64,000 nt of DNA from Vreelandella songnenensis (lineage in GTDB: Bacteria > Pseudomonadota > Gammaproteobacteria > Pseudomonadales > Halomonadaceae), in assembly GCF_003002925.1 (NCBI RefSeq), contig NZ_PVTK01000005.1:186001-250000 (forward strand), in the 5' to 3' direction. The notes under the pieces were generated by a model that was given only the letters and a program-made list of their open reading frames with translations, ran no database searches and was not told the origin of the DNA. Within the stretch, counting starts at the first letter, position 1; every line of letters starts with the position of its first letter. A program made the translations under genes and the position numbers. Below are positions 11,293 through 55,480 of the stretch, one piece after another.

Positions 11293-11342
11293 CCCTTTTT
11301 TGCAGATTAAGCGTGCAGTATGCACCACCTAATCACAGAGAC

Positions 11343-11367
11343 AAAAAAAGCGAGCTTGGCTCGCTTT
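11343..11367 (-). terminator. Intrinsic terminator of the tRNA-Tyr-Gly-Thr operon
   Basis: On the minus strand GCGAGC-CAA-GCTCGC, extended by AAA/TTT, ends in seven T, starting 11 bases after the tRNA-Thr CCA end. It separates the three-tRNA operon from the tRNA-Trp promoter, in the place where other gammaproteobacteria read on into tuf. Confidence 0.9.
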
Positions 11368-11377
11368 CTTCGCAATA

Positions 11378-11452
11378 TGGAGCTCATGGACGGAATTGAA
11401 CCGTCGACCTCACCCTTACCAAGGGTGTGCTCTACCCCTGAGCTACATGAGC
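11378..11452 (-). tRNA. tRNA-Thr (GGT anticodon)
   Basis: 75 bases with encoded CCA. The acceptor GCTCATG pairs with CATGAGC, the anticodon stem ACCCT/AGGGT frames loop TGGTAA with anticodon GGT, and the T arm holds GGTTCAATTCC. Last gene of a Tyr-Gly-Thr tRNA cluster. Confidence 0.97.
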
Positions 11453-11466
11453 ATAAACACATCAAC

Positions 11467-11540
<74 letters not shown>

Positions 11541-11658
11541 AAACCTGGGGCCACGTAACCGCTGCCCGAATGACAAGCCGCGCACGCCGAACGATAGACA
11601 ATGCCCACTTACCGGCTTTCATCCAGCAACATCGACCCTGGCCGACGCTGCTTAAATC

Positions 11659-11742
<84 letters not shown>

Positions 11743-11756
11743 ATCTTTGGCGGCAC

Positions 11757-11784
11757 ATTATGCCAGCCTCCAAAACAGTGTCAA
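11757..11784 (-). promoter_or_regulatory. Strong tRNA operon promoter
   Basis: On the minus strand a perfect TTGACA (11779-11784), a 16-base spacer and CATAAT (11757-11762), followed by the GC-rich discriminator GTGCCGCC. It lies 15 bases before tRNA-Tyr, which fits a growth-rate-controlled stable-RNA promoter. Confidence 0.85.
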
Positions 11785-11860
11785 GCTAGATATTTACTTA
11801 ATTTATCGTAGCTTGCGATGCCTGAGCACCCATACCTGCCTTGGAACGCGCTGCATTCTG

Positions 11861-12700
11861 TCAAAGCAGCATGGAGAATGCAAGGCCTGCGCGAATTTTT
11901 TCTAATGATACCGGCTCAGGCACCCGTGGCGCGCCGGACATCTTGCCCGCCCGTTCGGCAAACGTCAGCGGGAAGCTGGCTTCAAGCCCCCCGTAAACCA
12001 TGTCCGGCCACACCGCGTGAGGCACCTGAACACCTCTGGACACCACGCGCGCATCACCGCCGGTCAGCAGCATGGGCAGCGAGATGCCCTGCTGGTCACA
12101 TACTTCGCTGTAGATACGGTTGATGGCGCTGACCGCAGCCATGTAAATACCGTGATTGACCGCGTCCACTGTCCGCCGCCCGGGTTCCAGAAGCGCGTCC
12201 GCTTCACTTTCAGGGTCGATGGCCACATTGCGCGTACCCAGCTTCAAGCTCTCTTTCATCAGGCGCAGCCCGGGAATGATGAAGCCTCCCAGGTGAACAC
12301 CGCCCGGCAGCACGAAATCGATGGTAATGGCGCTGCCGCAGTCGACCGCGCAGCAGCCTCCGGCCAATTGATAGCCGGCAAGCGCGCCCATCCAGCGATC
12401 AACCCCGAGACGCCCGGGCTCGTCGTAGCCGTTGATCACCCCCAGGGCCTCCGCCTGGGAGTGGGCCACGAACACGTGGCGCACCTGACGGCGCAGAAGG
12501 GTAACGGTTTCCTCCAGCACCGCCGCGCGAGCTACGCTGGAGATACGCACTGCCTCGACCACGTCGAGGTCGGGAATATCCGCCCCCGGGCGCCACTCTT
12601 CGCGGGTCCATACCGCACCGCGCGAGCGTATCTCGCTACTTTCGGCATCCTTGAGTCGCCACTTCGACAAGGTGTTGCCGATATCCAGATCCAGAATCAT
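11861..12700 (-). CDS. coaX: Type III pantothenate kinase
   Basis: First step of coenzyme A synthesis, phosphorylating pantothenate. It has 279 residues, slightly longer than the common ~250. ASKHA-fold motifs are visible: the N-terminal phosphate loop DLDIGNTLSKWR, then GVDRWMGALAGY, DCGSAITIDFV, and GGFIIPGLRLM. Its ATG overlaps the birA TGA (ATGA), so the two are translationally coupled, a common bacterial pair. No type I CoaA is visible in the window. Confidence 0.95.
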   Translation of the reverse strand: MILDLDIGNTLSKWRLKDAESSEIRSRGAVWTREEWRPGADIPDLDVVEAVRISSVARAAVLEETVTLLRRQVRHVFVAHSQAEALGVINGYDEPGRLGVDRWMGALAGYQLAGGCCAVDCGSAITIDFVLPGGVHLGGFIIPGLRLMKESLKLGTRNVAIDPESEADALLEPGRRTVDAVNHGIYMAAVSAINRIYSEVCDQQGISLPMLLTGGDARVVSRGVQVPHAVWPDMVYGGLEASFPLTFAERAGKMSGAPRVPEPVSLEKIRAGLAFSMLL

Positions 12701-13680
12701 AAGCGCCTGCGTACGCTGATCTCACCGCCTGCCAAGCGCCGCGAGTGACCGTTTTCAGTAACCCACAGGTTACCGCTCTCATCCACGTCGCCTGCGATCG
12801 CATCGCTTGCGCGCTCCCCTTGAATAATACACACGGGCAATCCGGCATAGGCGTGACGTGCATTCCATCCGTCACGCCAGGCGGCAAAGCCTACCTGCTC
12901 GAACTCGGCCAGCATGGTCAAAAGCCCGGCGACCATGTCGGCGGCCAGCTGATTGCGCGAAAGCCCGGCATGCACATCAAACAGGGCCGCCACCGGTTGG
13001 TCAATGGCAGCGCGCTGGGATTCACTCAGCGACAGGTTCATGCCCATGCCGATCACCACCTCACAAGGGCCCGCAGCATCGCCGGTGACCTCGATCAGAA
13101 TACCGGCAAGCTTGCCCAGCTCATCGCCGGTTTCGGCCAGCAGAATGTCGTTGGGCCACTTGAGCCTGGGCGCTGCCCCGTGCTGCTCCAGCACCTGGGA
13201 AACCACCACGCCGACGGCCAGGCTCAGCCCTTCAAGAGCAGTCACTCCAGATTCGAAGCGCCAGCCCAGCGACATCATCAAGCTCTGCCCCCAGGGGGTG
13301 GTCCACACCCGGCCGCGCCGGCCGCGCCCCGCGGTCTGCAGCTCGACCAGGCAGACTTCGCCGTGTCCGGCGGCCTGGCTAAAACGCTGACGCAGGTACT
13401 CGTTGCTCGACGGCAGCTGATCTTCCACGAACAGGCGTGTCAGCAGATGGCGCGCCTGGGCGGGCAGGCGCTCAACGATTCTGGCGCCTTCCAGCGGCTC
13501 CAGACGCTGAGCCAGCCGGTAGCCTCTCCCCTTGACGGCTACCAGCTCCACGCCGAGCGCTTCCAATTTTTTTAACTGTTTCCATACGGCAGCCCGCGAA
13601 ACGCCCAGCGCTTCACCTAATTGTTCACCGGAGTGAACCTCGCCATCGCTCAACAAACGCATCAGGTTACCGATGGTCAT
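12697..13680 (-). CDS. birA: Biotin-protein ligase / biotin operon repressor
   Basis: Attaches biotin to carboxyl-carrier proteins and represses biotin genes as biotinoyl-AMP complex. It has 327 residues. Residues ~1-60 form a winged helix-turn-helix (SGEQLGEALGVSRAAVWKQL). The catalytic domain has the biotinyl-AMP loop GRGRRGRVW and KWPND. The C-terminal SH3-like domain includes GNLWVTENGHSRRLAGGEIS. The presence of the DNA-binding domain indicates the bifunctional class. Confidence 0.96.
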   Translation of the reverse strand: MTIGNLMRLLSDGEVHSGEQLGEALGVSRAAVWKQLKKLEALGVELVAVKGRGYRLAQRLEPLEGARIVERLPAQARHLLTRLFVEDQLPSSNEYLRQRFSQAAGHGEVCLVELQTAGRGRRGRVWTTPWGQSLMMSLGWRFESGVTALEGLSLAVGVVVSQVLEQHGAAPRLKWPNDILLAETGDELGKLAGILIEVTGDAAGPCEVVIGMGMNLSLSESQRAAIDQPVAALFDVHAGLSRNQLAADMVAGLLTMLAEFEQVGFAAWRDGWNARHAYAGLPVCIIQGERASDAIAGDVDESGNLWVTENGHSRRLAGGEISVRRRL

Positions 13681-29781: not shown

Positions 29782-30702
29782 ATGAGTAGCAAGGCGACCC
29801 ATCCACCCGATACTCCGCTCTATCCGATTCGGGAAGTTTCCCGTTTGACGGGTGTGAACTCGGTCACCCTGCGCGCCTGGGAGCGACGCTACGGCCTGAT
29901 TCGTCCTAAACGCACGCCAAAAGGCCACCGTTTATATGCTCAGGACGATATCGCGCGCATCGAGCGCATTCTTCAGTGGCTCAATCGCGGCGTGCCGGTC
30001 AGCCAGGTCGTGGACCTGCTCGACCAGCCCGAAACCATCGAAGCGCCAGCCCCGGATGCAGGCGACTGGTTAAGCCAGCGTCAGCAGCTGCAGGCCGTTA
30101 TAGAAGCGCTGGATCTGCCCAAGCTCGAGATGCTCTATCACCAGAGTCTGGCGCTTTATCCGTTGAGCGTTGCCGTCAACGAGCTGTGGCAGCCGGTACT
30201 GATGGCGCTGGAAACCAAGTGGGCCATACAGCCGGACAATCTGGTGCGCCGCACGCTGGAAGCGTTCTTGCGCAGTCAGGTAGGCACCCGCCTGCACTAC
30301 GCCAATCAGTCCACACGCGGCCCTCTGATACTGCTTAACGCCATGCCCGATGACCCCGGCCCCCTCTGGGTGCTGATGGCTGCCTTGATGGCCAGCGAGC
30401 AGGGTTACCGCGTTCAGATGCTGGATCACTCCCTGCCGCTTGAAGACCTGCCACAGGCCGTGGCTCGCCTTCACTCCTCCATGGTGCTGTTGACCAGCGG
30501 CCAACGGGAGAGCGATAGCTTCATTCATACGGCGCTTCCCAACGCCGCTGAGGCGCTCAACGTGCCGCTTGGCGTATGCGGTGCCGTGGCCAGGCTGCGC
30601 GATAGCGAATTGCGCAGTGGTCCTGTACATACCCTGGGTGATGACCTGCCCCAGGCGATTGCGCGTCTCAGGCCGCTGCTGCGTGAGTCGGGCGTGCTGT
30701 AA
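29782..30702 (+). CDS. MerR-family LitR/CarH-like regulator with non-canonical B12-type domain
   Basis: 306 residues. Residues ~14-80 are a MerR winged helix (YPIREVSRLTGVNSVTLRAWE, RRYGLIRPKRTPKGHRLY). Residues ~100-300 resemble the helical bundle and Rossmann-like cobalamin-binding parts of CarH/LitR light sensors, including EQGYRVQMLDHSLP. The cobalamin signature DxHxxG reads DDPGPL at 190-195, with no His and no Gly, and the bundle EH motif is also missing. It therefore probably does not bind adenosylcobalamin. It resembles class II LitR proteins of Pseudomonas, which work without B12. Photolyase follows 51 bases later. Confidence 0.85.
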   Translation: MSSKATHPPDTPLYPIREVSRLTGVNSVTLRAWERRYGLIRPKRTPKGHRLYAQDDIARIERILQWLNRGVPVSQVVDLLDQPETIEAPAPDAGDWLSQRQQLQAVIEALDLPKLEMLYHQSLALYPLSVAVNELWQPVLMALETKWAIQPDNLVRRTLEAFLRSQVGTRLHYANQSTRGPLILLNAMPDDPGPLWVLMAALMASEQGYRVQMLDHSLPLEDLPQAVARLHSSMVLLTSGQRESDSFIHTALPNAAEALNVPLGVCGAVARLRDSELRSGPVHTLGDDLPQAIARLRPLLRESGVL

Positions 30703-30753
30703 ATATCTGTTGATCGGGCGCGAGCCCCGAGATTTGGCACTACCGGAGAGAAC

Positions 30754-32166
30754 ATGGATGTTCAACTAGTCTGGTTGCGAAGCGACCTGCGCATTCACGA
30801 TAATACGGCGCTCGCGGCGGCCGCCGCCAAAGGGCCGGTGGTGGCGGTCTTCCTGCGCAGCGTTGCCCAGTGGCAGTATCACGGCCACGGTGCGACGAAG
30901 ATCGACTTCTGGGCGCGCGGCGTTAGCGCGCTCAAGGATGCACTCAACGGGCTTAACATTCCCCTGCTGCACCGCGATATTGACCGCTACGATGACGCGC
31001 CCCAGGCGCTTCTAGACATCGCACGCGAGCACAACATCGCACGGCTGCATTTCAACTATCAGTACCCGCTCAACGAACAGCGCCGCGACCAGGCGGTGCT
31101 GGATGCCTTCAAGAAGGAAGGCATCGCCGTCCACGGCTATCATGACGCAGTCGCCTTTGCCCCCGGCACGCTGCTGACCGGCAAGGGCGACTACTACGGC
31201 GTGTTTACGCCTTTCTCCAAGGCGTGGCACAAACAGGTCAGCGCCGAGCAGCTTGAGCTGCGCGATACGCCCGAACCGCAAGAGCGGCTATCCATCAAAA
31301 GCGACAAGCTGCCGGAGCTACCCGAATTCGATGATGCCCCGGTAGGCGGCCGCGAGTGGCCCGCCGGTGAAGAGACGGCAGGCGACCATCTGGCGCGTTT
31401 TTTACGCTTTCGTGGCCGTCACTATAACGACCAGCGCGACTTTCCCAGCGTACGCGGCACCAGCGAGCTTTCGCCTTACCTGGCGCTGGGCATGATTTCC
31501 TACCGCCAGTGTCTGCAGGCCGTGATGAGCGAAAACGGTGGCCACCTGGCCGATGGCGATGCGGGGCTAACCACCTGGGTGAACGAGCTTATCTGGCGTG
31601 AGTTTTATCAACATGTGGCGGTAGGATTTCCCGAAGTATGCCGCTATCAGCCGTTTCAGGAACACACCAAGCAGCTTGCCTGGCGCGAGGATGACGAAGG
31701 CTTCAAGGCCTGGTGCGAGGGGCGTACGGGATATCCGCTGGTGGACGCGGCCATGCGTCAGATGCTGGCAACGGGCTGGATGCACAACCGGCTCAGAATG
31801 GTCACGGCCATGTTCTTGAGCAAGCATCTGCTGATCGATTGGCGCCGGGGCGAGGCGTTTTTCATGCGCCATCTGGTAGATGGTGAGTTCTGTGCCAATA
31901 ACGGCGGCTGGCAGTGGGCGGCGTCCACCGGTACGGATTCAGCGCCCTATTTCCGGATCTTCAACCCGACCACCCAGTCCACGCGCTTCGACCCTGACGG
32001 CGAGTTCATTGCCAAATGGGTGCCGGAGCTTGCCGAGCTGCCCGCCAAGGCGCGCCATGCGCCGCCTCGGGACATGCTGACCCAACTGGACTACCCGGAA
32101 CCCATCGTGGATCACAAGGCTGCCCGAGCGCGCGCGCTGGATGCATTCAAGGCGCTGAGCAAATAA
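30754..32166 (+). CDS. phrB: Deoxyribodipyrimidine photolyase
   Basis: Light-driven repair of cyclobutane pyrimidine dimers, 470 residues (472 in E. coli). Antenna domain begins VQLVWLRSDLRIHDNTALA. The FAD-binding region has WVNELIWREFY, GYPLVDAAMRQMLATGWMHN, RMVTAMFLSKHLLIDWRRGE and GGWQWAASTGTDSAPYFRIF, with the tryptophans needed for electron transfer retained. GGAGAG precedes the ATG. Probably co-transcribed with the LitR-like regulator. Confidence 0.97.
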   Translation: MDVQLVWLRSDLRIHDNTALAAAAAKGPVVAVFLRSVAQWQYHGHGATKIDFWARGVSALKDALNGLNIPLLHRDIDRYDDAPQALLDIAREHNIARLHFNYQYPLNEQRRDQAVLDAFKKEGIAVHGYHDAVAFAPGTLLTGKGDYYGVFTPFSKAWHKQVSAEQLELRDTPEPQERLSIKSDKLPELPEFDDAPVGGREWPAGEETAGDHLARFLRFRGRHYNDQRDFPSVRGTSELSPYLALGMISYRQCLQAVMSENGGHLADGDAGLTTWVNELIWREFYQHVAVGFPEVCRYQPFQEHTKQLAWREDDEGFKAWCEGRTGYPLVDAAMRQMLATGWMHNRLRMVTAMFLSKHLLIDWRRGEAFFMRHLVDGEFCANNGGWQWAASTGTDSAPYFRIFNPTTQSTRFDPDGEFIAKWVPELAELPAKARHAPPRDMLTQLDYPEPIVDHKAARARALDAFKALSK

Positions 32167-43969: not shown

Positions 43970-44111
43970 TTGATTGACCGTCTGCCCCCAAACGCCCCCT
44001 GCTGATTGCCGCCGTGCGCTCGAGGGGGTGGCTAAACGCAGCCAGGCGCTTTTGCCATGCCTTTGCGCCCTGTAATCTGTAAGTCTTCCTACCCAACTGA
44101 CTGTGCTGATC

Positions 44112-44651
44112 ATGAAATCACTCTTAACGGCCTTGGCAAGCAGCGCGCTTTTAATGGGCGCGCCTTTAGCGTCGGGGGTTACTTTCAATACCCAGGAAGT
44201 AAACACTCACGGCCAGTGGCAATCGCTGATTTTGAACCTGGGTCGCGAACACCACTTTCGTGCCGTCGAAACTCAGAGCTACTCGGATGCCACGCTCAGC
44301 CTGAACGCCACGCAAGACGTGTGCGACCTGCCGTGGCTTGAAGTACGGGTGACGCTTGAAGAGCAGCAGGCAGAGAGCCGCACGGTTAACCTGGTACCCA
44401 CACGAATCAGGATCGACGAGCAGCCAGTGATGGATAGCATGGCGGAATTTATCACCGAGCGCGGCGATGACGGGTTTTACGTGCACTTCTACCTGGGCGA
44501 TATGCCCGCCTTGATTCGCCAGATGCGAGAGGGTGAGCAGCTGTTTCTAGGCTTTGATCAGGGTGAACAGCCCCCCTGGTACATGACGTTTCAACTTGAG
44601 GGTGCCAATGAGGCCATTTCACGCATGCAGACACTGTGTGAAGCGGCCTAG
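44112..44651 (+). CDS. Exported protein of unknown function
   Basis: 179 residues, not recognised. N-terminal signal peptide (MKSLLTALASSALLMGAPLA) with probable cleavage near ASG-VTF. The mature part is mostly beta-like and acidic, with two Cys (QDVCDLP and the near-terminal TLCEAA) that could form a disulfide. Start ATG 44112 lacks a clear ribosome site; a GTG nine bases upstream is possible. Convergent with the phytochrome-like gene, stops two bases apart. Confidence 0.75.
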   Translation: MKSLLTALASSALLMGAPLASGVTFNTQEVNTHGQWQSLILNLGREHHFRAVETQSYSDATLSLNATQDVCDLPWLEVRVTLEEQQAESRTVNLVPTRIRIDEQPVMDSMAEFITERGDDGFYVHFYLGDMPALIRQMREGEQLFLGFDQGEQPPWYMTFQLEGANEAISRMQTLCEAA

Positions 44652-44653: not shown

Positions 44654-46669
44654 TCACCCTTTGACGCGAGCCGCTTCGCCAGCGGCTACTTCCACCCGAT
44701 TTCGCCCCTTGCGCTTAGCCAGGTACATGGCTGCATCGGCGCGGGCCATCAGCGTCTTGCAGCTGTCATCAGGCTGCCAGGCCACCACGCCGATACTCAC
44801 CGTTACCGGCTGATCAAGCCCCGGCAGTTGAAGCGTCACCAACAGCTCGCGCAGTCGTTCAGCCAGGCCTGCTGCCGCCTGGATATCCGAATGGGTTGCC
44901 AGTATCACAAACTCCTCCCCTCCCCAGCGGCCAAAATAGTCGCAGCCCCGCAGCGAGCTTTCCACCCTCCGGGCCAGGGCTACCAGTACTTCATCGCCCA
45001 GGCTGTGGCCGTAGGTATCGTTGATCGCCTTGAAGTGGTCGACGTCAAACATGAGCAGCGCGAAGGTGGCGCCATAACGCTTGGCGGCGACCAGCTCGTC
45101 ATCGATTGCCTGCTCGATACGGTAGCGGTTCCATATCTGCGTCAACGGATCAAAATGCGCCAGCTGTTCTAGGCGCTGATTGGCGGAGGCCAGTGCCTTG
45201 CGCTCACGCTCCAGATGCATATTGAGCATGCTGATTTCGTAGCTTGAAATAGCCAACGTCAAGTCGCGCCCCAGGCTCATCGCCGCCAGGCGCTCAACGC
45301 GCTGCCACGCTTCGCTACAGCCTGTCACCTCCTCGTACCAGGCCGTTGGCAGCGTACCGCTTACCGGCAGTGCGACGGCGCTTACCGGACGCACGGACCA
45401 GTGAAGCACGGGACACGGCGTCAAGCGGAAGAAAAACAGCCAGGCGCGCTGGGCATGGCCCATGGATAACGGGATCGCCATCACTCCGGCCTGCTCCGGC
45501 ATGGCAAGCGAACTGGTCAATGAATGCTTGGCCGTATTGCGCGTGCACCAGGGGCCATTGTGAGGATGAGCCTGGCGCAGACGTATGACCATCTGGCTGA
45601 TTACCTCGGGAGCCGGCGTCTTTCCCGCCTGATACACCCCGCCGGCATGCCATAGCGCGACGCCCTGGGCTCGAAACAGGGTCATCCAGGTGGCGGCCTG
45701 ATCCAGCAGCAGCTGTTCAGGGCCCCGGGGGCTTTGTTGGGTGTTCATGGAGGACGCCAGGCTGTCCTGCACGCGTTTTAAATAGCGTGCCTCGTGCCGG
45801 GCGCGCAGCAGCGAAAGCCGCTCGGTGGCGGCCTGTACCAGGATATGCACCGCATCGCGCACCGCGGCAGTTACCTCGTGCGCCGCCGTTGCATGACAGA
45901 ACAACACGCCCCATAGCCCGGTTTCGCAGATCATGGAGACGTTGAGCATGCCGCGCACGCCGAGCCGTTCCAGGTAGCGCTGACGCTCGAACGTGGGTGC
46001 GCGCAGTACGCTGGCGCTCAGATCAACGGAAAGATCGCCAGGCGTCAGCGGTCCGACAGGGGCTTGGGCATCTTGAATATAGCGTACCGGGTGGCGTACG
46101 TAGGCACGCCGCAACGCCACGGGGAAATCACGGGCCGCCAGCCGCTGGCCCGCGATGGAGCACTCATCATCTGCTTTGGCTTCGGCCACGATATGTCCGT
46201 GCCAGTCCGGATCAAACTGGCATACCGCCACACGCGTAAAGCCGGTCAGCGTGCGAACGGTGGTGACCAGATAAGCCAGCAGCTCCTCTTGATGAGTCGT
46301 TTCAGCCAGGCGCGAAAGATGTTCGTGGAGCGCTCCCAGCAGGCGGTGCTGACCGTCCATCCGAAACGGCTCGAGCTCCATGAGCACATGCTCGCCGCTA
46401 CGGTAAGCGCGCAGTTGAAAGTGTAAAGACCTGTTCGCCCCGCGGCTAAAGACCAGCGGCGCTGCCAGGCGTGGCTGGCCCTGCAGTTCGCACCGCACCT
46501 GCTGAGTCAGGCGTCTGCCCAGCAGTTGTTCAAGCGTTATCGGGGGTGATGATGCGCCAAGGCCAGCCAGCGTTGCGAGATTGGCGCTGGTCGCCTGAAT
46601 GCGGCGGCTTTCGGCATCCAGTACCAGCAGGGCACCGAACGATTGCAATAAAGGGTAATGCTTGGACAC
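44654..46669 (-). CDS. Bacteriophytochrome-like diguanylate cyclase lacking chromophore ligands
   Basis: 671 residues, order PAS-GAF-PHY-GGDEF. PAS: GALLVLDAESRRIQATSANL. GAF: AARDFPVALRRAY, SVDLSASVLRAP, GLWGVLFCHA. PHY end: AWYEEVTGCSEAWQRVE. Cyclase: GRWGGEEF with inhibitory site RGCD five residues before. In the reading frame a stop lies six codons before the GTG, so the N-terminal Cys segment of bacteriophytochromes cannot be present. The GAF His aligns to Arg229, and tongue PRxSF is missing. Cyclase activity is likely and biliverdin binding unlikely (inference). Eleven bases after the motD-type gene, hence probably the last gene of the flagellar operon. Confidence 0.88.
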   Translation of the reverse strand: MSKHYPLLQSFGALLVLDAESRRIQATSANLATLAGLGASSPPITLEQLLGRRLTQQVRCELQGQPRLAAPLVFSRGANRSLHFQLRAYRSGEHVLMELEPFRMDGQHRLLGALHEHLSRLAETTHQEELLAYLVTTVRTLTGFTRVAVCQFDPDWHGHIVAEAKADDECSIAGQRLAARDFPVALRRAYVRHPVRYIQDAQAPVGPLTPGDLSVDLSASVLRAPTFERQRYLERLGVRGMLNVSMICETGLWGVLFCHATAAHEVTAAVRDAVHILVQAATERLSLLRARHEARYLKRVQDSLASSMNTQQSPRGPEQLLLDQAATWMTLFRAQGVALWHAGGVYQAGKTPAPEVISQMVIRLRQAHPHNGPWCTRNTAKHSLTSSLAMPEQAGVMAIPLSMGHAQRAWLFFFRLTPCPVLHWSVRPVSAVALPVSGTLPTAWYEEVTGCSEAWQRVERLAAMSLGRDLTLAISSYEISMLNMHLERERKALASANQRLEQLAHFDPLTQIWNRYRIEQAIDDELVAAKRYGATFALLMFDVDHFKAINDTYGHSLGDEVLVALARRVESSLRGCDYFGRWGGEEFVILATHSDIQAAAGLAERLRELLVTLQLPGLDQPVTVSIGVVAWQPDDSCKTLMARADAAMYLAKRKGRNRVEVAAGEAARVKG

Positions 46670-46680
46670 AAACCCGGCCT

Positions 46681-47358
46681 TTAGTTATTTTCACCCTCCG
46701 GCTGTTGGCGCAGCAACAGCTCAACGCGCCGGTTAGCGGCGCGTCCGGCCGGCGTTGCGTTACTTTCCATGGGTTGGGTGTCGGCGTAGCCAACCGCCCG
46801 CATGCGAGAAATAGCCACTCCCTGACGCTCAAGATGACGCATCACGGCGATAGCGCGCCCGGCAGAAAGCTCCCAGTTGGAAGGAAAGCGGGGCGTGGCA
46901 ATCGGAATATTGTCAGTATGCCCTTCAACGGAAATCTGCCCATCAAAGGTTGCCAGCGCGTCAATCAGGCTTTCTACCACATCTTGCCCCTGAGCTGTTA
47001 GCACTGCCTCGCCGCTTGGAAACAAAAGGCTATCATCGATGCGCAGCGTTACGCCCTCACGCCCCTGGGAGACGCTGACACCCGGAATATCGAGTGCCGC
47101 CATGGCAGGCTGTACGCCGTTTTGGCGCGGCATTAAACCCGCGCCATGCGGGCCCATAAGCGGGTCCCCCGTACCCGCCCCGGACAGGCGGGTACTCTCT
47201 TGCGCCTCCTGGCCGCCGGGCGGCGCCAGCGCAAGCAACAGTACAAACAGCGTAATCAGCAGCGTGAGTACGTCCAGATAGCTGGTCAGCCAGCTTTCGT
47301 CGCTTTCGCCCTGCGCGGCGGGCAGCTCCAGCGTATGGCGCGTATCGCGATCCAGCAC
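46681..47358 (-). CDS. motD: Flagellar stator protein, MotB/MotD type
   Basis: Peptidoglycan-anchored half of the flagellar stator, 225 residues. GTG start. One membrane helix with the ion-binding Asp in WLTSYLDVLTLLITLFVLLL. OmpA-like domain ~100-220 with VEGHTDNIPI, SNWELSAGRA and NRRVELLL. The gene directly after the MotA-type partner and fliA corresponds to pseudomonad motD; a second motAB could exist outside the window. Choice of H+ or Na+ cannot be read. Confidence 0.88.
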   Translation of the reverse strand: MLDRDTRHTLELPAAQGESDESWLTSYLDVLTLLITLFVLLLALAPPGGQEAQESTRLSGAGTGDPLMGPHGAGLMPRQNGVQPAMAALDIPGVSVSQGREGVTLRIDDSLLFPSGEAVLTAQGQDVVESLIDALATFDGQISVEGHTDNIPIATPRFPSNWELSAGRAIAVMRHLERQGVAISRMRAVGYADTQPMESNATPAGRAANRRVELLLRQQPEGENN

Positions 47359-47361: not shown

Positions 47362-48180
47362 TCAGCCCTTTGCCGATGCGCTGTCAGTGCCGGGCCGGGG
47401 TTTTATGCTGGGGTCGCGAATTTCATCGTTGTAGTTGGCAATAAACGAATTCAGCGTTTCTTCGATAAAGGACGGCAGGCGACGCTTGGTGATCAGCGAG
47501 ATGCCTTCCAGCACCATGTTCATGGTGATCAGGCGCTCTTCGGTACGCCGTTCAAGCTTGACGGCAATCGGCTTGAACACCAGATTGGCCAGCAGAATGC
47601 CGTAGAACGTGGTAAGCAGCGCCACCGCCATGCGCGGGCCGATCACCTCAAGATCACCGGCGTCCATGACTTCGAGCATGTTGACCAGCCCCACCAGCGT
47701 GCCAATCATGCCAAAGGCGGGCGCGTAGGTGGCCATCGTACGAAATATCTGCGCCTCGGCATGCTCCCGCGCCTTCAGGCGGGCAATCCGCCAGCGCAGC
47801 ATGTCGAAAATTTCATTCTCTTTGGTATTGGCAATGACCAGCTGAATACCGGTGCGCAGAAACGGATTGCGGGTATGCTCGAGCGCTTTTTCCACGGCGC
47901 GCACATCGCCCTTGAACCACAGCCGTGACATGGCAACCAGCTCGTTGATGTCGTCGCGGGCATAGGTGTTCTCACGTCGGAATACCAGGCCCACCAGGCG
48001 CACGACGCGCAGCACTTCCTTGAGCGGATAGCTGATGAACGTAGCCGCCAGGGTGCCGGTCACCACGATCGCCAGACCCGGCAGGTTAATGAAACTTTCC
48101 GGCGACTCGGCGGTAAAGAACAGCACGCTTATCAGCAGCAGAATGCTGGCGAATATACCTATCAACGTAGACGGGTTCAT
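47362..48180 (-). CDS. motC: Flagellar stator protein, MotA/MotC type
   Basis: Four-helix stator subunit, 272 residues; ATG 48180 with GAGGAG upstream (MNPSTLIGIFASILLL). Large cytoplasmic loop with charged residues that touch the rotor (~85-150), then MIGTLVGLVNMLEVM and PRMAVALLTTFYGILLANLV in helices 3-4. Resembles PomA/MotC rather than E. coli MotA in length. Three bases separate its stop from motD. Confidence 0.88.
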   Translation of the reverse strand: MNPSTLIGIFASILLLISVLFFTAESPESFINLPGLAIVVTGTLAATFISYPLKEVLRVVRLVGLVFRRENTYARDDINELVAMSRLWFKGDVRAVEKALEHTRNPFLRTGIQLVIANTKENEIFDMLRWRIARLKAREHAEAQIFRTMATYAPAFGMIGTLVGLVNMLEVMDAGDLEVIGPRMAVALLTTFYGILLANLVFKPIAVKLERRTEERLITMNMVLEGISLITKRRLPSFIEETLNSFIANYNDEIRDPSIKPRPGTDSASAKG

Positions 48181-48220
48181 CAACGGCTCCTCGCCGGTTG
48201 GTGTAAGTGAGAGTGGCAGT

Positions 48221-48922
48221 TCAGCCAGCGTCGTTCAGGCGAGCCCGCAAACGGCTGATGGCCTGGCTATGCAGTTGGGAGACCCGGGATTCGGTAACAC
48301 CCAGCACGGCACCTACCTCCTTGAGGTTCAGCTCCTCCTGATAGTAAAGCGCCATCAGCAGCTTTTCGCGCTCCGGCAAGGCGTCGATTGCCGCCACCAG
48401 CGTCTCACGCTGCTGATCACCCAGAAGTTGATCAAACGGCAGGTTGCCGGCATCAAAGCTTGCCGGCTCACTACCATCGGCCACCAGCTCTTCAAAGGGC
48501 AAAAGCTGGCCGCTGTTGGTATCGTTGAGAAGCTGCTGATACTCGTTTAGCGGCATATCGAGATCGCGGGCGATTTCGCCCTCTTCAGGTGGGCGTCCCA
48601 ACTGCTGCTCAAGCCGGCGGATAGTGTCGTCCACTGCCCGCGCCGCGCGCCGGACGCTGCGCGGCAGCCAGTCCCGGGTACGCAGCTCATCCAGCATCGC
48701 CCCGCGAATACGCTGGCTGGCAAAGGTGGCAAAACTGGCACCCTGGGTCGCATCGAAGCGGCTGAGTGCTTCCAGAAGCCCCACCGTGCCCGCCTGGATA
48801 AGATCGTCAAGTTCAATGCTTGCCGGTAACCTGACCTGCAGCGTTAAGGCATGACGTCTCACCAGGGGCATGTACTGCGTCAGTAGCTCACGCTGTTGGA
48901 TCCTGCCTTGTGCTGTGTACAT
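48221..48922 (-). CDS. fliA: Flagellar sigma factor 28
   Basis: Late flagellar sigma factor, 233 residues (239 in E. coli). Regions 2 (DLIQAGTVGLLEALSRFDA, FASQRIRGAMLDELR) and 4 (EELNLKEVGAVLGVTESRVS) are typical of FliA/WhiG. The cluster order flhF-x-(flhE)-fliA-motCD is pseudomonad-like. No sigma-28 promoter could be confirmed by eye in the cluster. Confidence 0.96.
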   Translation of the reverse strand: MYTAQGRIQQRELLTQYMPLVRRHALTLQVRLPASIELDDLIQAGTVGLLEALSRFDATQGASFATFASQRIRGAMLDELRTRDWLPRSVRRAARAVDDTIRRLEQQLGRPPEEGEIARDLDMPLNEYQQLLNDTNSGQLLPFEELVADGSEPASFDAGNLPFDQLLGDQQRETLVAAIDALPEREKLLMALYYQEELNLKEVGAVLGVTESRVSQLHSQAISRLRARLNDAG

Positions 48923-48948: not shown

Positions 48949-49350
48949 TCACTGGTAGTTCACAATGACTTGCAGCCCTTGCACGCGTACTGGGCGCTGG
49001 CCTGGACGTAGCGCAAAGCGAAAACGCAGCGGCGCATCCGCCTGCCTGCCCGCAAGCGCGGTAACGGTCCCGCGCATACCGGAAAGCGCAACACACTGCT
49101 GGGGATGACAGAGCCAAGCGTTGACGACCTCCCCGGGCGGTGCATCCAGACGCCAGTGTATCCGGTCGATAACCCCCCCATCGAGAGATACACCGGGCGG
49201 CGGCGTGACCGGGTGGCTGACGCTCTCCCGATCGCTCATGGCGACCATGACGCCGGGCACCTGGGCACTCCAGCTGCCTGCCGCATGGGTCGCGCCGACG
49301 AACGCGATAAGCCAAGCGCAACTCATTACCCTTAATATCCAGCTTAGCAT
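48949..49350 (-). CDS. flhE: Flagellar protein FlhE
   Basis: 133-residue periplasmic protein. Signal peptide ends near THAAG-SWSA. Family features: IHWRLDAPPG, the paired Cys stretch WLCHPQQCVALSG, LRFRFAL and terminal VIVNYQ. In enterobacteria flhE follows flhBA and helps prevent proton leak through the export apparatus. Here it lies after flhF and the FleN-position gene, 26 bases before fliA. GAGGA precedes the ATG. Confidence 0.85.
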   Translation of the reverse strand: MLSWILRVMSCAWLIAFVGATHAAGSWSAQVPGVMVAMSDRESVSHPVTPPPGVSLDGGVIDRIHWRLDAPPGEVVNAWLCHPQQCVALSGMRGTVTALAGRQADAPLRFRFALRPGQRPVRVQGLQVIVNYQ

Positions 49351-49419: not shown

Positions 49420-50016
49420 TCAGCGTGCCAGCAAGAGAAGATCGGTAGCCAGGTAGCTGGCGGCGGCGGCGCGCAGGTTGCTCAAGAGCCCCTGTCGTCT
49501 TACATTCGGCTCATGTAGCGCCAGCAGACGCTGTGGGCCACCATGCTCACGCGCCAGACGCAGGGCGCGGTACATCTGGGCAAAGGCATCGGCATCGCTG
49601 CTGATCCACAGCGCCCAACGGGCATGCTGCGCCGTGAGCCGGGCAAGCTCGGGGGCATCCGGATCAATGACATGGATCTCCCACGCCTCGGGGCTGCCAG
49701 CCCACTTGCGACCCAGCGTCGACCACTGCCCCAGGCGTTGCTTTACCTGCGCGCGGGTAAGCGTCCCCCGTCCCGCCGGGCCAATGACCCATAGCGGTTT
49801 CAACGGCGCAGGCGGTGTAATGGCCAGGGGTGCGATGGGCTGAGGAGCGCCGCTGGATACTTCGGGCGATAGTTCGCTCTCAGGCGCTGCTTGACTGGCA
49901 GGCACGGGCGTCATGGGCGCAAGACTTTCTTCAGCAAGCTCTTCGCCACCTTGCTCCTGCTTCATGCGCTGGGCATCCGCCCATTGGCGAAGGCCCGCCG
50001 CCTGGTCCTGACTCAT
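49420..50016 (-). CDS. FleN/FlhG-position protein without P-loop
   Basis: 198 residues, not confidently assigned. Residues 1-75 are Pro/Ala/Glu-rich and disordered-looking; ~75-198 are compact (PLWVIGPAGRGTLTRAQVKQ ... ARWALWISSDADAFAQMYRA ... YLATDLLLLAR). It occupies the slot of fleN (flhG) between flhF and fliA, and part of its second half faintly resembles the MinD/FleN helix after the Walker B strand. There is no KGGxGKT motif, so it is not a working FleN ATPase. ATG overlaps the flhF TGA. Confidence 0.65.
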   Translation of the reverse strand: MSQDQAAGLRQWADAQRMKQEQGGEELAEESLAPMTPVPASQAAPESELSPEVSSGAPQPIAPLAITPPAPLKPLWVIGPAGRGTLTRAQVKQRLGQWSTLGRKWAGSPEAWEIHVIDPDAPELARLTAQHARWALWISSDADAFAQMYRALRLAREHGGPQRLLALHEPNVRRQGLLSNLRAAAASYLATDLLLLAR

Positions 50017-52178
50017 ACGCCTACCTCGCGACTGACGCTACCCAACTGACGAATGGCGTCCCGCGCCATGAAGGCGTAGACCAGCGCATCCAGCATGGCC
50101 GTATCACGACGCTTGCGGCGAGTGCCCAGCAGGTTCAGCAGATCGGTACGCAAAGCCAGCGCGGCCTCATCAGAGGCGTTATCCAGATGACTGACCACCG
50201 CCGCCACGCCACTGGCCATCAACAGGCGCACCTCGGCGCTTACATCACCGCTATCGGCTTCCTTGAGCTGCTGCCAGGCGCGCTTGGTCAACGCCGAGAG
50301 CCCCTCGCTTTGCAGTTGGGTCGTTAACAGCGGCAGTACTTCGCCACCCAGCCGCGCAGGCGTGAGCCAGTAGCGCCGGGCAACCACCTTGGCGCTTTCC
50401 GGATCGCGAATCTCGCCGTACCAGGCCGTCAGCGCATCGCCGGCGTCGCCATGCACTTCAGCGTAGGCGTTCCATAGCTGCATGGCCTGGCCGCGAAAGC
50501 GAACATCAACGCGGTGGCTAAGTGTGCTGTCATTGAACAGGGCACGCAGCGTGGAGCGCTCGCCGTGGAAGGATACCCGCTGGGCAGGGGCCGCGAGACT
50601 GACCCAGGTCAACGCCTGCGCATTTAACCACTGCCGGGTGTCGAAATCGGGCAGCACGGGCAGCAGGTGCGCGCGTGTGCCCGAGCGCTCGTTCTGGGCT
50701 TCCAAACGGGCCTGCCAACCGGCGGGCTGGCGGTGCTGCAACGCAGGCAGCGCAAGCCAAGCGTCTTGCTCGTCGATACCCATATCCGGCATGGCCCAGT
50801 CACAGCCGCGCTCGTTGCGCCGCGCCGACCAGGCCGTGGTGGCAGCCGGCAAGGGCTTGGCAAGCAACGCATCCAGCTGGCTGTCCTGCAGGCCGCCGGG
50901 CAGTGCGCCGATATCCCACACGGCTTCCAGCGCACCAAAGCCGGTCATGCGCTGGCGTAACCGGGTCAGTAGCGATGACAGACGCCGCCCCTGGCCCAGC
51001 ACATCCCGCGACCAGCGCGGCATGCTGAGCGGAGCGGCAAGCCCTGAGCGCGTGCTGACCGGGGCCTGGGTTTCAAGCGCTTGATGGATCAGCGCCCTGG
51101 GTGTGGCCACACTCATGTCTTCGGGCACCTGCTGGCCATGCGAGCTGAACAGCACGCGCATGCCATGGCGGATGACGATATCCAGCACCGGAGCCAGACG
51201 GCCCGCTTCGTCCTGCTTGGTGATGATGCAGTCATCGAGCTCGGCGCCTGCCGCCCGGGCCGCCTGACGATAGCGCAGCACCACTTCTTCCAGGGTTTCC
51301 GGCTGGCTGGCGGCATTCAGCAGCAGCACCAGGCGAACGCGGGAGTGTCCGCCCTGAAGGTGGGCAATCTGTTCGATCACGCGCTGATCGCGCTGGCTCA
51401 TGCCCACCGTGTCGATCATGACCCACTGCTTGCCCTGCAGTCGGTTGAGCAGATCATCTACCGGCTGTTCGGCATCGAGCGCATACATGGGCGTATCCAG
51501 CAGCCGGGCGTAAATGCGCAGCTGTTCGTGGGCACCGATACGAAAACTGTCGGTGGTTACCAGCGCTACCGGGCGAGTGCCGTGGCGCATGACGAAGCGT
51601 GCGGCAAGCTTGGCGGTGGTGGTGGTCTTGCCGACACCGGTAGGCCCTACCAGGGCGACAATACCGGTCTGGTCGAAAAAGCTGGCTTCATCATCGAGCA
51701 CGTTAAGTCGACCGGCCAGCTGCTGGCGCAGCCAGGCAAGCGGCGCATCGCTTTGGGGGTCAAGCGCTTTGAGCGACTCGGGTAGCCCCGAAAGTATTTC
51801 GTCACCCAGCTCGGCGCTGAAGCCGACCCGTGCCAGCAGCTCACTCAGCTGTGCCTGGGTGCTCGTGGCCGCCGGGGCCGACGCTACGGGCTGCGCTGCC
51901 TGCTGGCGGGTCAGCAGTGCGCGCATATCCTGCATTTCCTGCAGCAGTCGTTCGCTCATGGCCTGCAGCGGATCAGGCGCACTCACCGGTTCGGCCACCG
52001 CCATCGGTGGCGTGGGCGTGAGTTCAGCGGCGTCGACCGCGTCATCGGCCATGGCCAGAATTTCCACGCCTTCATCAGTACGTCGATTGGCCAGAATCAG
52101 GGCGTCATCGCCCAGCGTCTCACGGACCTGGCGCATGACATCGCGACTGTTTGCTCCAATAAAACGCCTAACGCTCAT
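50013..52178 (-). CDS. flhF: Flagellar SRP-like GTPase FlhF with long C-terminal extension
   Basis: SRP-family GTPase that places the flagellar export apparatus. N-terminal domain SVRRFIGANSRDVMRQVRET, linker, then the NG core: P-loop GPTGVGKTTTTAKL from residue 178, MIDTVGMSQRD (~255) and TKQDEAGRL (~320). The core ends near 370, as whole FlhF proteins of ~400-480 residues usually do, but this one continues to 721. The extra ~350 residues match no domain I recognise and share the frame without interruption. Confidence 0.92.
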   Translation of the reverse strand: MSVRRFIGANSRDVMRQVRETLGDDALILANRRTDEGVEILAMADDAVDAAELTPTPPMAVAEPVSAPDPLQAMSERLLQEMQDMRALLTRQQAAQPVASAPAATSTQAQLSELLARVGFSAELGDEILSGLPESLKALDPQSDAPLAWLRQQLAGRLNVLDDEASFFDQTGIVALVGPTGVGKTTTTAKLAARFVMRHGTRPVALVTTDSFRIGAHEQLRIYARLLDTPMYALDAEQPVDDLLNRLQGKQWVMIDTVGMSQRDQRVIEQIAHLQGGHSRVRLVLLLNAASQPETLEEVVLRYRQAARAAGAELDDCIITKQDEAGRLAPVLDIVIRHGMRVLFSSHGQQVPEDMSVATPRALIHQALETQAPVSTRSGLAAPLSMPRWSRDVLGQGRRLSSLLTRLRQRMTGFGALEAVWDIGALPGGLQDSQLDALLAKPLPAATTAWSARRNERGCDWAMPDMGIDEQDAWLALPALQHRQPAGWQARLEAQNERSGTRAHLLPVLPDFDTRQWLNAQALTWVSLAAPAQRVSFHGERSTLRALFNDSTLSHRVDVRFRGQAMQLWNAYAEVHGDAGDALTAWYGEIRDPESAKVVARRYWLTPARLGGEVLPLLTTQLQSEGLSALTKRAWQQLKEADSGDVSAEVRLLMASGVAAVVSHLDNASDEAALALRTDLLNLLGTRRKRRDTAMLDALVYAFMARDAIRQLGSVSREVGV

Positions 52179-52226: not shown

Positions 52227-54314
52227 TTAGCGGCCCCCGACCAGCGTGGTAACACGCAGCGTTCGGTCATCTGGAATTTCGGCCTGGGACATCACGACCA
52301 GATGGCGCATCCGGCGGCGCAGAAAGCGCGAGAGCACGCCGCGCAGCGAGTGCTGGACCACCAGCACCGGCGCTTCGCCGCTCGCTTCGTGACGCTCCAG
52401 CGCTTGATGCGCCTGGGTCATCAGGGTATCTGCCAAACCGGGCTCCATCGCGCCGTTGCCGTTCATTGCCTGAATCAACACCTGCTCAAGCTGGGCATCG
52501 AGTCCCATCACGTTGAGCGTCTCCTGGCCGGCAAACCACTGCTGGGTAATGGCGCGACCCAGACCGATACGCACCAGGGCCGTCAGTTCGCCCGGGTCTT
52601 TCTGCTGGCCGGCATACTCGGCCAGGGTATCCAGAATGGAGCGCATGTCACGAATGGAGACATCCTCTTCCAGCAGGTTTTGCAGAATACGCTGCAAGAC
52701 GGTGAGCGAAATGGCCTTGGGCACCACTTCCTCGACCAGCGATTTCTGATCCTCGCCCAGCTTATCGAGCAGCTTCTGGACTTCCTGGCGCCCCAGCATT
52801 TCCGGCGAATGGCGGTGCAGCAGATGATTCAGGTGCGTGGCAATCACGGTGCTGGCATCCACCACCGTATAGCCATAGACCTGGGCATGCTCACGCTGGT
52901 TGGTATCGATCCACACCGCCGGCAGGCCAAAGGCGGGGTCTTGGGTGGCCGTGCCCTGAAGCTCACCGGAAACCTGGCCTGGGTCGATGGCAAGCCACTT
53001 GCCCGGCTGAGCGTCGGCGCGGCCAATTTCTGCGCCTTTCAGTGAAAGCACGTAGGCGTTGGGGGAAAGCTCCAGGTTGTCGCGGATATGCACCACCGGG
53101 GGCAGAAAGCCGACTTCCTGAGCAAATTTCTTGCGCACGCTCTTGATGCGTCCCAATAGCTCACCTTTCTGGCGCGCATCCACCAGCGGAATCAGGCGGT
53201 GGCCGACTTCCAGCCCCAGCGTATCCACCAGTTGAACATCCTCCCAGCTGGCCTCGGGCGTCTCCTGGGTGACCGAGGGCGCGGTGGCGATCTCTTCCTG
53301 TACCTGGGTTTTCTGCTTATGACGAATCAGGACCCAGGCCAGCCCGCCCAGCAGCGCGGTAAACAGCAGAAATACGAAATTGGGCATGCCGGGCACCATA
53401 CCCAACAGCCCCAGGACGACGGCGGCCAGAATCAATACCTGAGGATTCACGAACAGCTGGCTGAGCATTTGCTGGCCAATGTCTTCGTTCGTGTCGGTAC
53501 TCACTCGAGATACCGTGACACCCGCGGCCGTCGAGATCACCAGCGCCGGAATTTGAGCGACCAGGCCGTCACCAATCGCCAGCAGCATGTACGTCGTGGC
53601 GGCGTCGGAGAACCCCATATCGTGCTGCAGCATGCCTATCATCAGCCCGCCGATGATATTGACGACCATGATCACCAGGCCGGCAATGGCATCACCGCGG
53701 ACGAACTTGCTCGCACCGTCCATCGAGCCAAAGAAATCCGCCTCTTGAGCGACCTCCGCGCGACGCTTCTTGGCATCCTCTTCGCCAATCAGGCCAGCAT
53801 TGAGATCGGCATCGATAGCCATCTGCTTACCGGGCATGGCATCCAGCGTGAAGCGCGCTCCTACCTCGGCAATTCGCCCGGCGCCTTTGGTGATGACCAT
53901 GAAGTTGATGATGACGAGGATCAAAAAGACCACCAGGCCCACGGCGAAATTGCCGCCCACCAGGAATGCTCCGAAGGCTTCGATAACCTTACCGGCGGAG
54001 GCACCGCCCAGGTGGCCCTCCATCAGCACCACCCGGGTCGAGGCGACGTTAAGTGACAGACGCAGCAGGGTGGTAAAGAGCAATATGGATGGAAACGCCG
54101 CAAAATCCAGCGGCTTACGTGTAAACATGCTGACCATCAGCACCATGATGGCCAAGGCAATATTGAAGGTGAAGAGTAGGTCGAGCGCAAAAGGGGGCAA
54201 GGGCACGATCATCATGCCCAGGATCATCAGAATCAGCAGCGGCCCGACCAGCAGCTTCATGCGCACATCGCTCATCCAGTCGCGCTGACCTATTAGCTGA
54301 CTAAAACCTTTCAT
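52227..54314 (-). CDS. flhA: Flagellar export gate protein FlhA
   Basis: Type III export gate component, 695 residues. Eight N-terminal membrane helices (MLLIRNISG-like family region PFALDLLFTFNIALAIMVLM and SLNVASTRVVLMEGH), the FHIPEP-type loop (GAGRIAEVGARFTLDAMPGK), and a large cytoplasmic domain from ~330 on. Start overlaps the flhB stop (ATGA). Confidence 0.97.
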   Translation of the reverse strand: MKGFSQLIGQRDWMSDVRMKLLVGPLLILMILGMMIVPLPPFALDLLFTFNIALAIMVLMVSMFTRKPLDFAAFPSILLFTTLLRLSLNVASTRVVLMEGHLGGASAGKVIEAFGAFLVGGNFAVGLVVFLILVIINFMVITKGAGRIAEVGARFTLDAMPGKQMAIDADLNAGLIGEEDAKKRRAEVAQEADFFGSMDGASKFVRGDAIAGLVIMVVNIIGGLMIGMLQHDMGFSDAATTYMLLAIGDGLVAQIPALVISTAAGVTVSRVSTDTNEDIGQQMLSQLFVNPQVLILAAVVLGLLGMVPGMPNFVFLLFTALLGGLAWVLIRHKQKTQVQEEIATAPSVTQETPEASWEDVQLVDTLGLEVGHRLIPLVDARQKGELLGRIKSVRKKFAQEVGFLPPVVHIRDNLELSPNAYVLSLKGAEIGRADAQPGKWLAIDPGQVSGELQGTATQDPAFGLPAVWIDTNQREHAQVYGYTVVDASTVIATHLNHLLHRHSPEMLGRQEVQKLLDKLGEDQKSLVEEVVPKAISLTVLQRILQNLLEEDVSIRDMRSILDTLAEYAGQQKDPGELTALVRIGLGRAITQQWFAGQETLNVMGLDAQLEQVLIQAMNGNGAMEPGLADTLMTQAHQALERHEASGEAPVLVVQHSLRGVLSRFLRRRMRHLVVMSQAEIPDDRTLRVTTLVGGR

Positions 54315-55480
54315 GGTTGTTGCGCCTCATTACCACCGGCGCCATGCCCGGGGCTTTCCAATTCCGGTGGAACCGGCAGATTATCGGGAGTTGGGGGCAC
54401 CTCGCCTCCTTGTTGTGCAACGTGCTTCAGGCGATAAGCCCAGGCCATGACCTCGGCCACGGCGGTATAAAGCTCGGCGGGCACTTCGGCGTCCAGGTCC
54501 ACATGATGGTAAAGCGCGCGCGCCAGCGGTGGCGCCTCCAGCCGCGGAATCCCTGACTCGCTACCCAGCTCGCGAATACGCGCCGCCACGGCGTCCGCCC
54601 CTTTGGCCACCAGACGCGGCGCGCCCATACTGCCTTCCTGGTACATCAGGGCCACGGCATAATGGGTCGGGTTGGTAATGATAACGTCGGCCTGGGGTAC
54701 CTTGCTCATCATTCTGCCCCGCGCCATGGCCTGCTGCTGCTGACGGATACGCCCTTTCACATGAGGGTCGCCCTCGGACTCCTTGTGCTCGCGCTTGATC
54801 TCTTCCTTGCTCATGCGAAGCTTCTTGGCATTGCTCCACAGCTGAAAAGGTACGTCCATGAGAATCACGACAATCAGCGAAAACACCATCAGTCCGGCGG
54901 CCTGAGCGGCCATGTTAAGCGCTCCGGCAAGGGCCTGCTGAATAGGCTGGTCCATCAAGGACAGAAACTTGCCGATATTGAAGTACAAAAACGCCGAGGC
55001 CACGCTGCCGATCAGTACCGATTTGGCAATCGCCTTGGCAAGCTCGATAAGCGCCTGAGAAGAGAAGATGCGCTTGACGCCTGCCACCGGGTTAAGCTTG
55101 GAAAACTTGGGCTTCATGGACTTGGCGGACACGATCCAGCCGCCCAGCAGCGCCGGCGACACCAGCGCGACCACCATAAGCAGCAGAAACAGTGGCGTCA
55201 GGGCAATCAGCGTTCGCTGGCCCAGATCCAGCGCATTGACCAGCATGGGCATCTCTTCCATGGCCTGGCGCCGCTCGAACAGAAATGCCTGCTCCATGAC
55301 CATGCCCAGCTGGTCATAAAGCATCATGCCCATACTCCACAAACCAACGACGCCGCCCAGCAGGAGTAGAAACGTGGTGAGCTCGCGGGAGCGGGGAACC
55401 TGTCCCTCTTCACGGGCTTTTTCTCTACGCCTGGGCGTGGCCTCTTCGGTCTTTTCCTGATCGCTATCGTTATCTGCCAT
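54311..55480 (-). CDS. flhB: Flagellar export switch protein FlhB
   Basis: Substrate-specificity switch of the export gate, 389 residues. N-terminal charged tail (EKTEEATPRRREKAREEGQV), four membrane helices, and the autocleavage motif NPTH within DVIITNPTHYAVALMY. A terminator-like hairpin separates it from cheZ upstream, so flhBA may have its own promoter. Confidence 0.97.
   Translation of the reverse strand: MADNDSDQEKTEEATPRRREKAREEGQVPRSRELTTFLLLLGGVVGLWSMGMMLYDQLGMVMEQAFLFERRQAMEEMPMLVNALDLGQRTLIALTPLFLLLMVVALVSPALLGGWIVSAKSMKPKFSKLNPVAGVKRIFSSQALIELAKAIAKSVLIGSVASAFLYFNIGKFLSLMDQPIQQALAGALNMAAQAAGLMVFSLIVVILMDVPFQLWSNAKKLRMSKEEIKREHKESEGDPHVKGRIRQQQQAMARGRMMSKVPQADVIITNPTHYAVALMYQEGSMGAPRLVAKGADAVAARIRELGSESGIPRLEAPPLARALYHHVDLDAEVPAELYTAVAEVMAWAYRLKHVAQQGGEVPPTPDNLPVPPELESPGHGAGGNEAQQP

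Follow-up and report, generated by a model that had tools for sequence, protein, structure and literature searches.

What does a phytochrome do once it has lost the residues that would hold its pigment, and why should such a protein be encoded at the end of a run of flagellar genes? The present study analyzes a gene that raises both questions, at 44654..46669 on the minus strand of a 64,000-nucleotide stretch of the Vreelandella songnenensis genome (RefSeq assembly GCF_003002925.1, contig NZ_PVTK01000005.1, positions 186,001 to 250,000 of the forward strand; hereafter the window, with positions counted from its first letter). Pfam matches, alignment with the cyclase IsPadC and a structural model predict a diguanylate cyclase of 671 amino acids with a PAS-GAF-PHY sensor, and we call it blind, as against sighted relatives that keep the Cys motif and the His of a bilin-binding phytochrome. 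On balance we consider it probable, judging from sequence, that the protein is a light-independent cyclase made together with the MotC/MotD stator, in which the former photosensor persists as a regulatory module in dimeric form.

Results

The domain order proposed in the first-pass annotation of the window held in a profile hidden Markov model search, where all four Pfam matches exceeded the curated cut-offs: PAS_2 (residues 7-101, 46367..46651), GAF (128-281, 45827..46288), PHY (298-473, 45251..45778) and GGDEF (504-658, 44696..45160, 152 bits), with a helical sensor-effector linker (474-505, 45155..45250) leading into the last, all on the minus strand. PAS_2-GAF-PHY is the order of a bacteriophytochrome; the score against NCBIfam NF041576 (bacteriophytochrome BphP) was 125.7 bits, below the equivalog cut-off of 1040. 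The closest solved protein is IsPadC (phmmer E 9.3e-91), whose alignment (5llw) covers residues 7-659 and leaves the window protein with seven extra residues in its coiled-coil linker. An AlphaFold2 model (predicted local distance difference test 89.6, predicted template modeling score 0.70) found IsPadC 5llw as its best Foldseek match (E 1.5e-58, template modeling score 0.72); the alignment under the model includes sighted phytochromes, and the predicted fold is therefore partly theirs. The 50 VIA-align entries shown mostly span residues 1-480 and do not include IsPadC, which we do not count against the likeness because Foldseek ranks IsPadC first.

Within this architecture the cyclase half looks intact and the pigment site does not. 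GGEEF, RGCD at the inhibitory RxxD site and the FDxDxFKxIND stretch are all present, so that by sequence criteria (GGD/EEF and RxxD in a full GGDEF domain) the protein would be an active diguanylate cyclase. In the sensor, an in-frame TAA at 46685-46687, five codons upstream of the GTG start, leaves no room for the Cys-containing segment of about 20 residues that would precede PAS_2; Arg229 aligns with the His of IsPadC SPLHMQY; and LPTAW occupies the place of the PHY tongue motif, PRKSF in IsPadC. All of these had been read correctly from the letters. The first-pass statement that each chromophore landmark it could check was lacking needs one refinement: Cys, His and PRxSF are lost, but DFP at 181-183 retains the Asp of DIP, with Ile changed, and two Arg and two Tyr at positions lining the bilin pocket in other phytochromes are also present. 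Compared with the published definition of PadC proteins (PMC9587094), the window protein retains the GGDEF/GGEEF signature and lacks the N-terminal bilin Cys (there is no CxxEPVH motif), DIP and the PRxSF tongue. Because three of four motifs differ, it falls outside that definition, and it also lacks the GAF His beside the bilin expected of a bacteriophytochrome; going by its motifs, a blind offshoot of the PadC family is the most fitting label.

The loss is not peculiar to this one gene. Relatives were found with two short peptide patterns taken from the cyclase domain (GGDEF), and the sighted set thus comprises only those with a close cyclase part. Among 61 genome loci, 58 matched sensor and cyclase parts and 54 of these had an intact frame, giving 55 rows with the window included. 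Twelve rows were sighted, with Cys motif and His in 12/12 and the tongue as PRxSF (7/12) or the variant PxRSF (5/12), and 42, including the window, were blind, with Cys motif, His and PRxSF each in 0/42, a contrast beyond what chance would give. GGD/EEF and RxxD were present in all 54 of these rows. The remaining row, L042, had lost the Cys and the tongue motif and kept His, DIP and Tyr. In a 55-row tree, which took 24 of the 35 rows lying behind motD (motD-linked), 31 blind rows formed one clade (support by the Shimodaira-Hasegawa-like approximate likelihood ratio test, SH-aLRT, 99) with L042 as its sister (98); this was a quick search with SH-aLRT only, which leaves the branching near the root open and places IsPadC on a long branch. 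The blind clade recurred in 49-row trees of the sensor alone (SH-aLRT 98) and of GGDEF alone (83). Since the GGDEF-only tree is independent of any convergence in the pocket, the two together make a single origin of the blind genes well supported. The intermediate place of L042, which is less well supported, suggests stepwise loss of the landmarks.

The former His position is Arg in 34/35 motD-linked rows and Gln in one, and in the seven blind rows away from motD it is Gln (5) or Leu (2). Other new residues are likewise fixed or nearly so in the motD-linked rows (C150 in 35/35, F182 in 32/35, also A226), and Arg223, Arg196, Tyr190 and Tyr232 are kept in 35/35. By DrBphP numbering, transferred by motif, Arg223 and Arg196 would be propionate-binding positions and Cys150 would stand at the Tyr176 position, which to our knowledge is not a bilin-linking site. 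Light sensing through misplaced ligands was considered and rejected, alignment with IsPadC and the 12 sighted relatives showing no Cys or His at ligand places. A wrong start codon masking the Cys segment was rejected as well: in the 34 motD-linked relatives a stop codon precedes the aligned start by 5-29 codons and the Cys motif occurs in 0/34, and a stray Cys above the likely start, seen in 11/42 blind rows, fell within a CxxEPVH motif in none. A one-off sequencing artifact was set aside in view of the gene's presence at 34 other intact motD-linked loci.

The ratio of nonsynonymous to synonymous substitution (dN/dS) was estimated by Nei-Gojobori in 12 blind and 3 sighted pairs, picked by hand and some sharing a member. 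Blind pairs gave 0.08-0.32 for PAS, 0.01-0.15 for GAF, 0.05-0.28 for PHY, 0-0.20 for the linker (one not computable) and 0.02-0.11 for GGDEF, against 0.20-0.39, 0.14-0.20, 0.12-0.20, 0-0.08 and 0.05-0.20 in sighted pairs, so that GAF, PHY and GGDEF in blind pairs are similar to or below their sighted counterparts. The window gene paired with L002 gave 0.28 (PAS), 0.12 (GAF), 0.15 (PHY) and 0.08 (GGDEF). Because dN/dS is low in PAS, GAF and PHY of blind pairs, the blind sensor is still under purifying selection; in most blind pairs constraint is strongest on the linker and GGDEF.

Genome position ties most of these genes to the flagellar stator. In the window the cyclase starts 11 bases after a motD-type gene, as first described (motD stop at 46681-46683, gap 46670..46680 on the minus strand), with a Shine-Dalgarno-like AAAGG just upstream of its GTG. 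A search of the junction for a separating promoter and terminator gave no terminator-like site and no minus-strand sigma-70-like site; one sigma-70-like site lies across it on the plus strand, about at chance level. Because of the short gap and the lack of such sites, co-transcription of motD and the cyclase is plausible. The proposal that the protein is made with the stators and FliA stands in part, favored by the 11-base gap and the place in the stator operon; a scan for sigma-28-type promoters gave 0 exact matches and 7 with at most two mismatches (2.5 expected), none of them between fliA and the cyclase. Among intact blind relatives, motD lies directly upstream on the same strand in 34/41, and in 33 of these 34 the aligned start is 11-87 bases from the motD stop (L007, the exception, was not measurable). 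MotD was matched at E 1e-20 in 74/82 genomes of the genus, of which 71 were counted (G090, G110 and G126 were dropped for a weak best match, although in G126, the genome of L031, the cyclase lies behind a motD piece at a contig end). Taking only PHY matches of E 1e-14 or better as strong, such a match lies no more than 2.5 kb from the counted motD in 50/71 Vreelandella genomes.

The cyclase closes the gene run flhB-flhA-flhF-ORF-flhE-fliA-motC-motD-cyclase. Here flhB (54311-55480) and flhA (52227-54314) lie upstream of flhF, an SRP54-type GTPase gene (50013..52178), and are followed by an open reading frame (ORF) of 198 amino acids (49420-50016), flhE by its Pfam match (48949..49350), a sigma factor gene with sigma-70 regions 2, 3 and 4 that is called fliA by its place (48221..48922), motC (MotA_ExbB, 47362..48183) and motD (MotB_plug and OmpA, 46681..47358), those from flhF onward on the minus strand. 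The ORF has no Pfam match, is matched in most motD-linked loci, and sits where FlhG would be expected, a label that would be a guess. Converging on the cyclase from the other side is a plus-strand ORF (44103-44651, 182 amino acids, no Pfam match), and similar-looking ORFs face motD also in loci that have lost the cyclase (e.g., L103, L104). Elsewhere in the window, at 29782-32166 on the plus strand, a MerR-type regulator whose B12-binding match is weak (23 bits against a cut-off of 32) adjoins a DNA photolyase, possibly a LitR/CarH-like light response needing no phytochrome.

One blind gene away from motD has a second, separate flagellar neighborhood: in Halomonas urumqiensis (L054, 6001-13055) a PAS-GGDEF-EAL gene comes next after it and then fliD and the flagellin gene, the blind gene lying about 2.6 kb before fliD and fliC. 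For the other six, no flagellar neighbors were found among the proteins searched for, only PAS and receiver-domain matches. Two of the blind genes (L039 and L052) adjoin an MFS-uvrA pair with no motD nearby; this pair is also near the window cyclase, but with uvrA on the cyclase side. A broken cyclase frame lies behind a whole motD in L117 and L118, and in L119 and L120 motD is split too, likely through assembly errors.

Sighted PadC genes (Cys, His, DIP, PRRSF and GGEEF) occur together with a blind gene in five Halomonadaceae genomes, namely those of Billgrantia campisalis, a Halomonas metagenome-assembled genome, Halomonas sp. QHL1, H. jincaotanensis and H. urumqiensis (locus pairs L034/L070, L037/L065, L018/L067, L040/L064 and L054/L076). 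L040 of H. jincaotanensis (5956-13571) combines four genes in one cluster, for a blind PadC, a GAF-PAS-GGDEF-EAL protein, a sighted PadC and heme oxygenase. The same EAL-type companion also accompanies sighted genes of Onishia (L048, L053), the intermediate gene L042 and, among blind genes, L034. The shared companion and the L040 cluster therefore point to duplication at a photosensory locus as the origin of the blind gene. At L040, blind and sighted subunits might conceivably pair with each other. The V. songnenensis genome encodes one PHY protein and gave no match to heme oxygenase (PF01126). A survey of 45 of the 58 loci and their genomes found heme oxygenase in 11/12 sighted versus 10/31 blind-bearing genomes; it was not found in the other 21/31, nor in the genomes of L042 and L059. 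Where a blind-bearing genome has the oxygenase, it adjoins another PHY protein in 9/10. A second phytochrome type of about 500-550 amino acids, with His and PRRSF and without a GGDEF motif (L085, L088, L092), adjoins heme oxygenase in G019, G009 and G025, and many genomes of the genus carry proteins of about 470-500 amino acids that match only the first part of the PHY profile (e.g., G055:C46:10367-10585).

Discussion

If our reading is right, the window cyclase would supply cyclic di-GMP (c-di-GMP) near the flagellar motor. The protein would be a dimer like IsPadC, in which passages of PMC6005682 describe a coiled coil that switches register and so lets the GGDEF domains meet; how often they do so in the window protein would be set jointly by the blind PAS-GAF-PHY module and a coiled coil seven residues longer. 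Linker lengths in steps of seven are usual according to PMC9587094 where it treats linkers, and because that step is kept and the linker is constrained, we infer that the sensor still moves it. Instead of light, the input would be a ligand other than bilin or contact with another protein, for which the stator or motor encoded by the operon is the likeliest partner. As to what triggers it, our guesses run from stator or motor contact, through a scaffold with no input, to a re-sculpted ligand or redox pocket; the first place goes to contact because of the operon and the MotC-SadC precedent of Pseudomonas aeruginosa (reported in part of PMC12288467), by analogy with which the c-di-GMP would act on motility. 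That c-di-GMP is set in step with motility is suggested by gene position. A sighted PadC beside heme oxygenase may thus have duplicated, and the copy lost the Cys and tongue motif and then the His before coming, in the Vreelandella line, to lie behind motD; trees and neighbors suggest that the pigment site was gone before the gene reached that place. A bolder version, to which we give only tentative credence and which is unlikely as it stands, is that a red-light photoreceptor was turned via duplication into a cytoplasmic flagellar-motor sensor, the pigment-less module reading the state of stator or motor, or else some metabolite linked to motility, and signaling through the old coiled-coil switch to the cyclase of its operon.

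Several observations weigh against the main reading. Seven of the 41 intact blind relatives are away from motD. Of the 71 genus genomes in which MotD was counted, 21 gave no strong PHY match at any place, and these include two of the three genomes closest by MotD (G080, G072). With remnants directly behind motD in 3 of the 14 loci checked among these 21 (L104, L105 and L106, of 46, 28 and 58 codons), the cyclase gene is dispensable and has been lost in part of the genus. The V. songnenensis genome has 25 GGDEF matches, so that a special motility role for this one is not required. Heme oxygenase is present in 10/31 blind-bearing genomes, at L040 within the blind gene's own cluster, and the GGDEF-only tree moves L042 away from the blind clade. 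Finally, the aggregation of IsPadC without bilin (described in part of PMC6005682) and the poor expression of HmPadC, a blind homologue from Halomonas meridiana, could mean that a cofactor is missing in E. coli.

It is possible, if somewhat unlikely, that the blind sensor is a dimerising scaffold only and that the cyclase is constitutive, limited by product feedback at the intact RxxD site, its level following from expression alongside the motility genes. The pocket has indeed lost most of its extra conservation: mean entropy is 0.35 versus 1.01 for the rest of GAF in sighted rows, and 0.64 versus 0.94 in the motD-linked blind clade (P 0.07 by sampling), and most blind pairs show the strongest constraint in linker and GGDEF. 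Such a scaffold does not readily explain why purifying selection persists on PAS, GAF and PHY, or why several pocket positions (C150, R229, F182) have been re-fixed, which is more than a bare scaffold seems to need. The same positions could mean that the pocket was re-sculpted for another ligand, either anionic or redox-active via Cys150 and Cys258, giving a chemical or redox sensor like RpBphP4 of Rhodopseudomonas palustris, reportedly a redox sensor. The two Arg, the two Tyr, Cys150 and Cys258 are each found in 35/35 motD-linked rows, and side-chain volumes summed over 21 pocket positions differ little (3134 in sighted rows, 3106 in motD-linked blind rows and 3226 in the window protein), so that the cavity need not be filled, but this estimate is crude, ignores the backbone and uses positions transferred by motif. 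Cys258 is moreover also present in 11/12 sighted rows, the C150 position is Tyr in 2/7 blind genes away from motD, and we know of no ligand-family signature for this pattern; we therefore think this reading unlikely.

A gene in decay, still translated and on its way out, would fit the remnants at L104, L105 and L106 and the broken frames beside a whole motD in L117 and L118. It is improbable for the window gene, whose 671-residue frame is intact, and dN/dS is far below 1 in every domain, the pair with L002 included. That bilin is still bound non-covalently, with the landmarks merely replaced and a light response kept, seems to us highly improbable. The DIP Asp, Arg223, Tyr232 and His259 are largely kept in blind rows and a third or so of blind-bearing genomes have heme oxygenase, but Cys motif, His and PRxSF are absent from all 42 intact blind rows, the oxygenase is unmatched in V. 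songnenensis and in most blind-bearing genomes, and nearly all the others have another PHY protein beside it. A light-independent cyclase tied to the stator remains the reading that we prefer.

IsPadC (5llw, 5llx, 6et7) and the PadC family share the whole architecture, fold and GGEEF with the window protein, the helical linker differing by seven residues. IsPadC is a red-light-activated diguanylate cyclase with the bilin Cys (according to a passage of PMC9587094), His, DIP and PRxSF, whereas the window protein, without Cys, His and PRxSF and with DFP for DIP, is likely light-independent. One blind homologue was already known, HmPadC (HmPadC+14), which PMC9587094 describes, in the two passages naming it, as missing all essential motifs and expressed too poorly to be characterised; those passages report no gene neighborhood, clade, paralogue or selection analysis. 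Judging by its description rather than a comparison of sequences, HmPadC is very likely an orthologue of the window gene.

Light-independent bacteriophytochromes of R. palustris, RpBphP4 among them, are tied to light-harvesting genes and are not cyclases; SadC is no phytochrome either, but a membrane protein. The window protein resembles RpBphP4 and RpBphP2/P3 in being a phytochrome that would work without bilin or without red-light sensing, and differs in its GGDEF output and flagellar neighbors. The first-pass annotation had suggested that a phytochrome fold used for something other than red light, setting c-di-GMP in step with motility, would be new; landmark loss, an intact-looking cyclase and the stator-operon place are borne out and hold for a whole clade, and "new" is too strong because phytochromes with light-independent roles are known, the low-light role of RpBphP2/P3 not needing red-light sensing according to part of PMC6879726. 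As is proposed for the window gene, a diguanylate cyclase goes with the MotC stator in P. aeruginosa, where MotC binds SadC and stimulates it (from part of PMC12288467); in the window such a link is suggested by operon position. No report of the operon, the blind clade or the paralogues was found by title or abstract start in open-licence literature. What the present study adds is the single blind clade, the intermediate, the sighted paralogues in the same genomes, and the place behind motD in most Vreelandella genomes that have motD.

These genes amount to a natural experiment in steps: the pigment landmarks of a phytochrome cyclase disappear while its sensor stays under selection, and where a genome also carries a sighted sister gene, that gene serves as a control. 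Because IsPadC could not be purified without bilin (as stated in part of PMC6005682), the blind proteins may reveal how the phytochrome fold is held and switched in its absence. Since dozens of related species have retained the gene, it can be tested whether a light sensor was converted to a different task, as seems likely. If the stator link is true, a soluble route derived from a phytochrome would join those considered for how flagellar motors set c-di-GMP.
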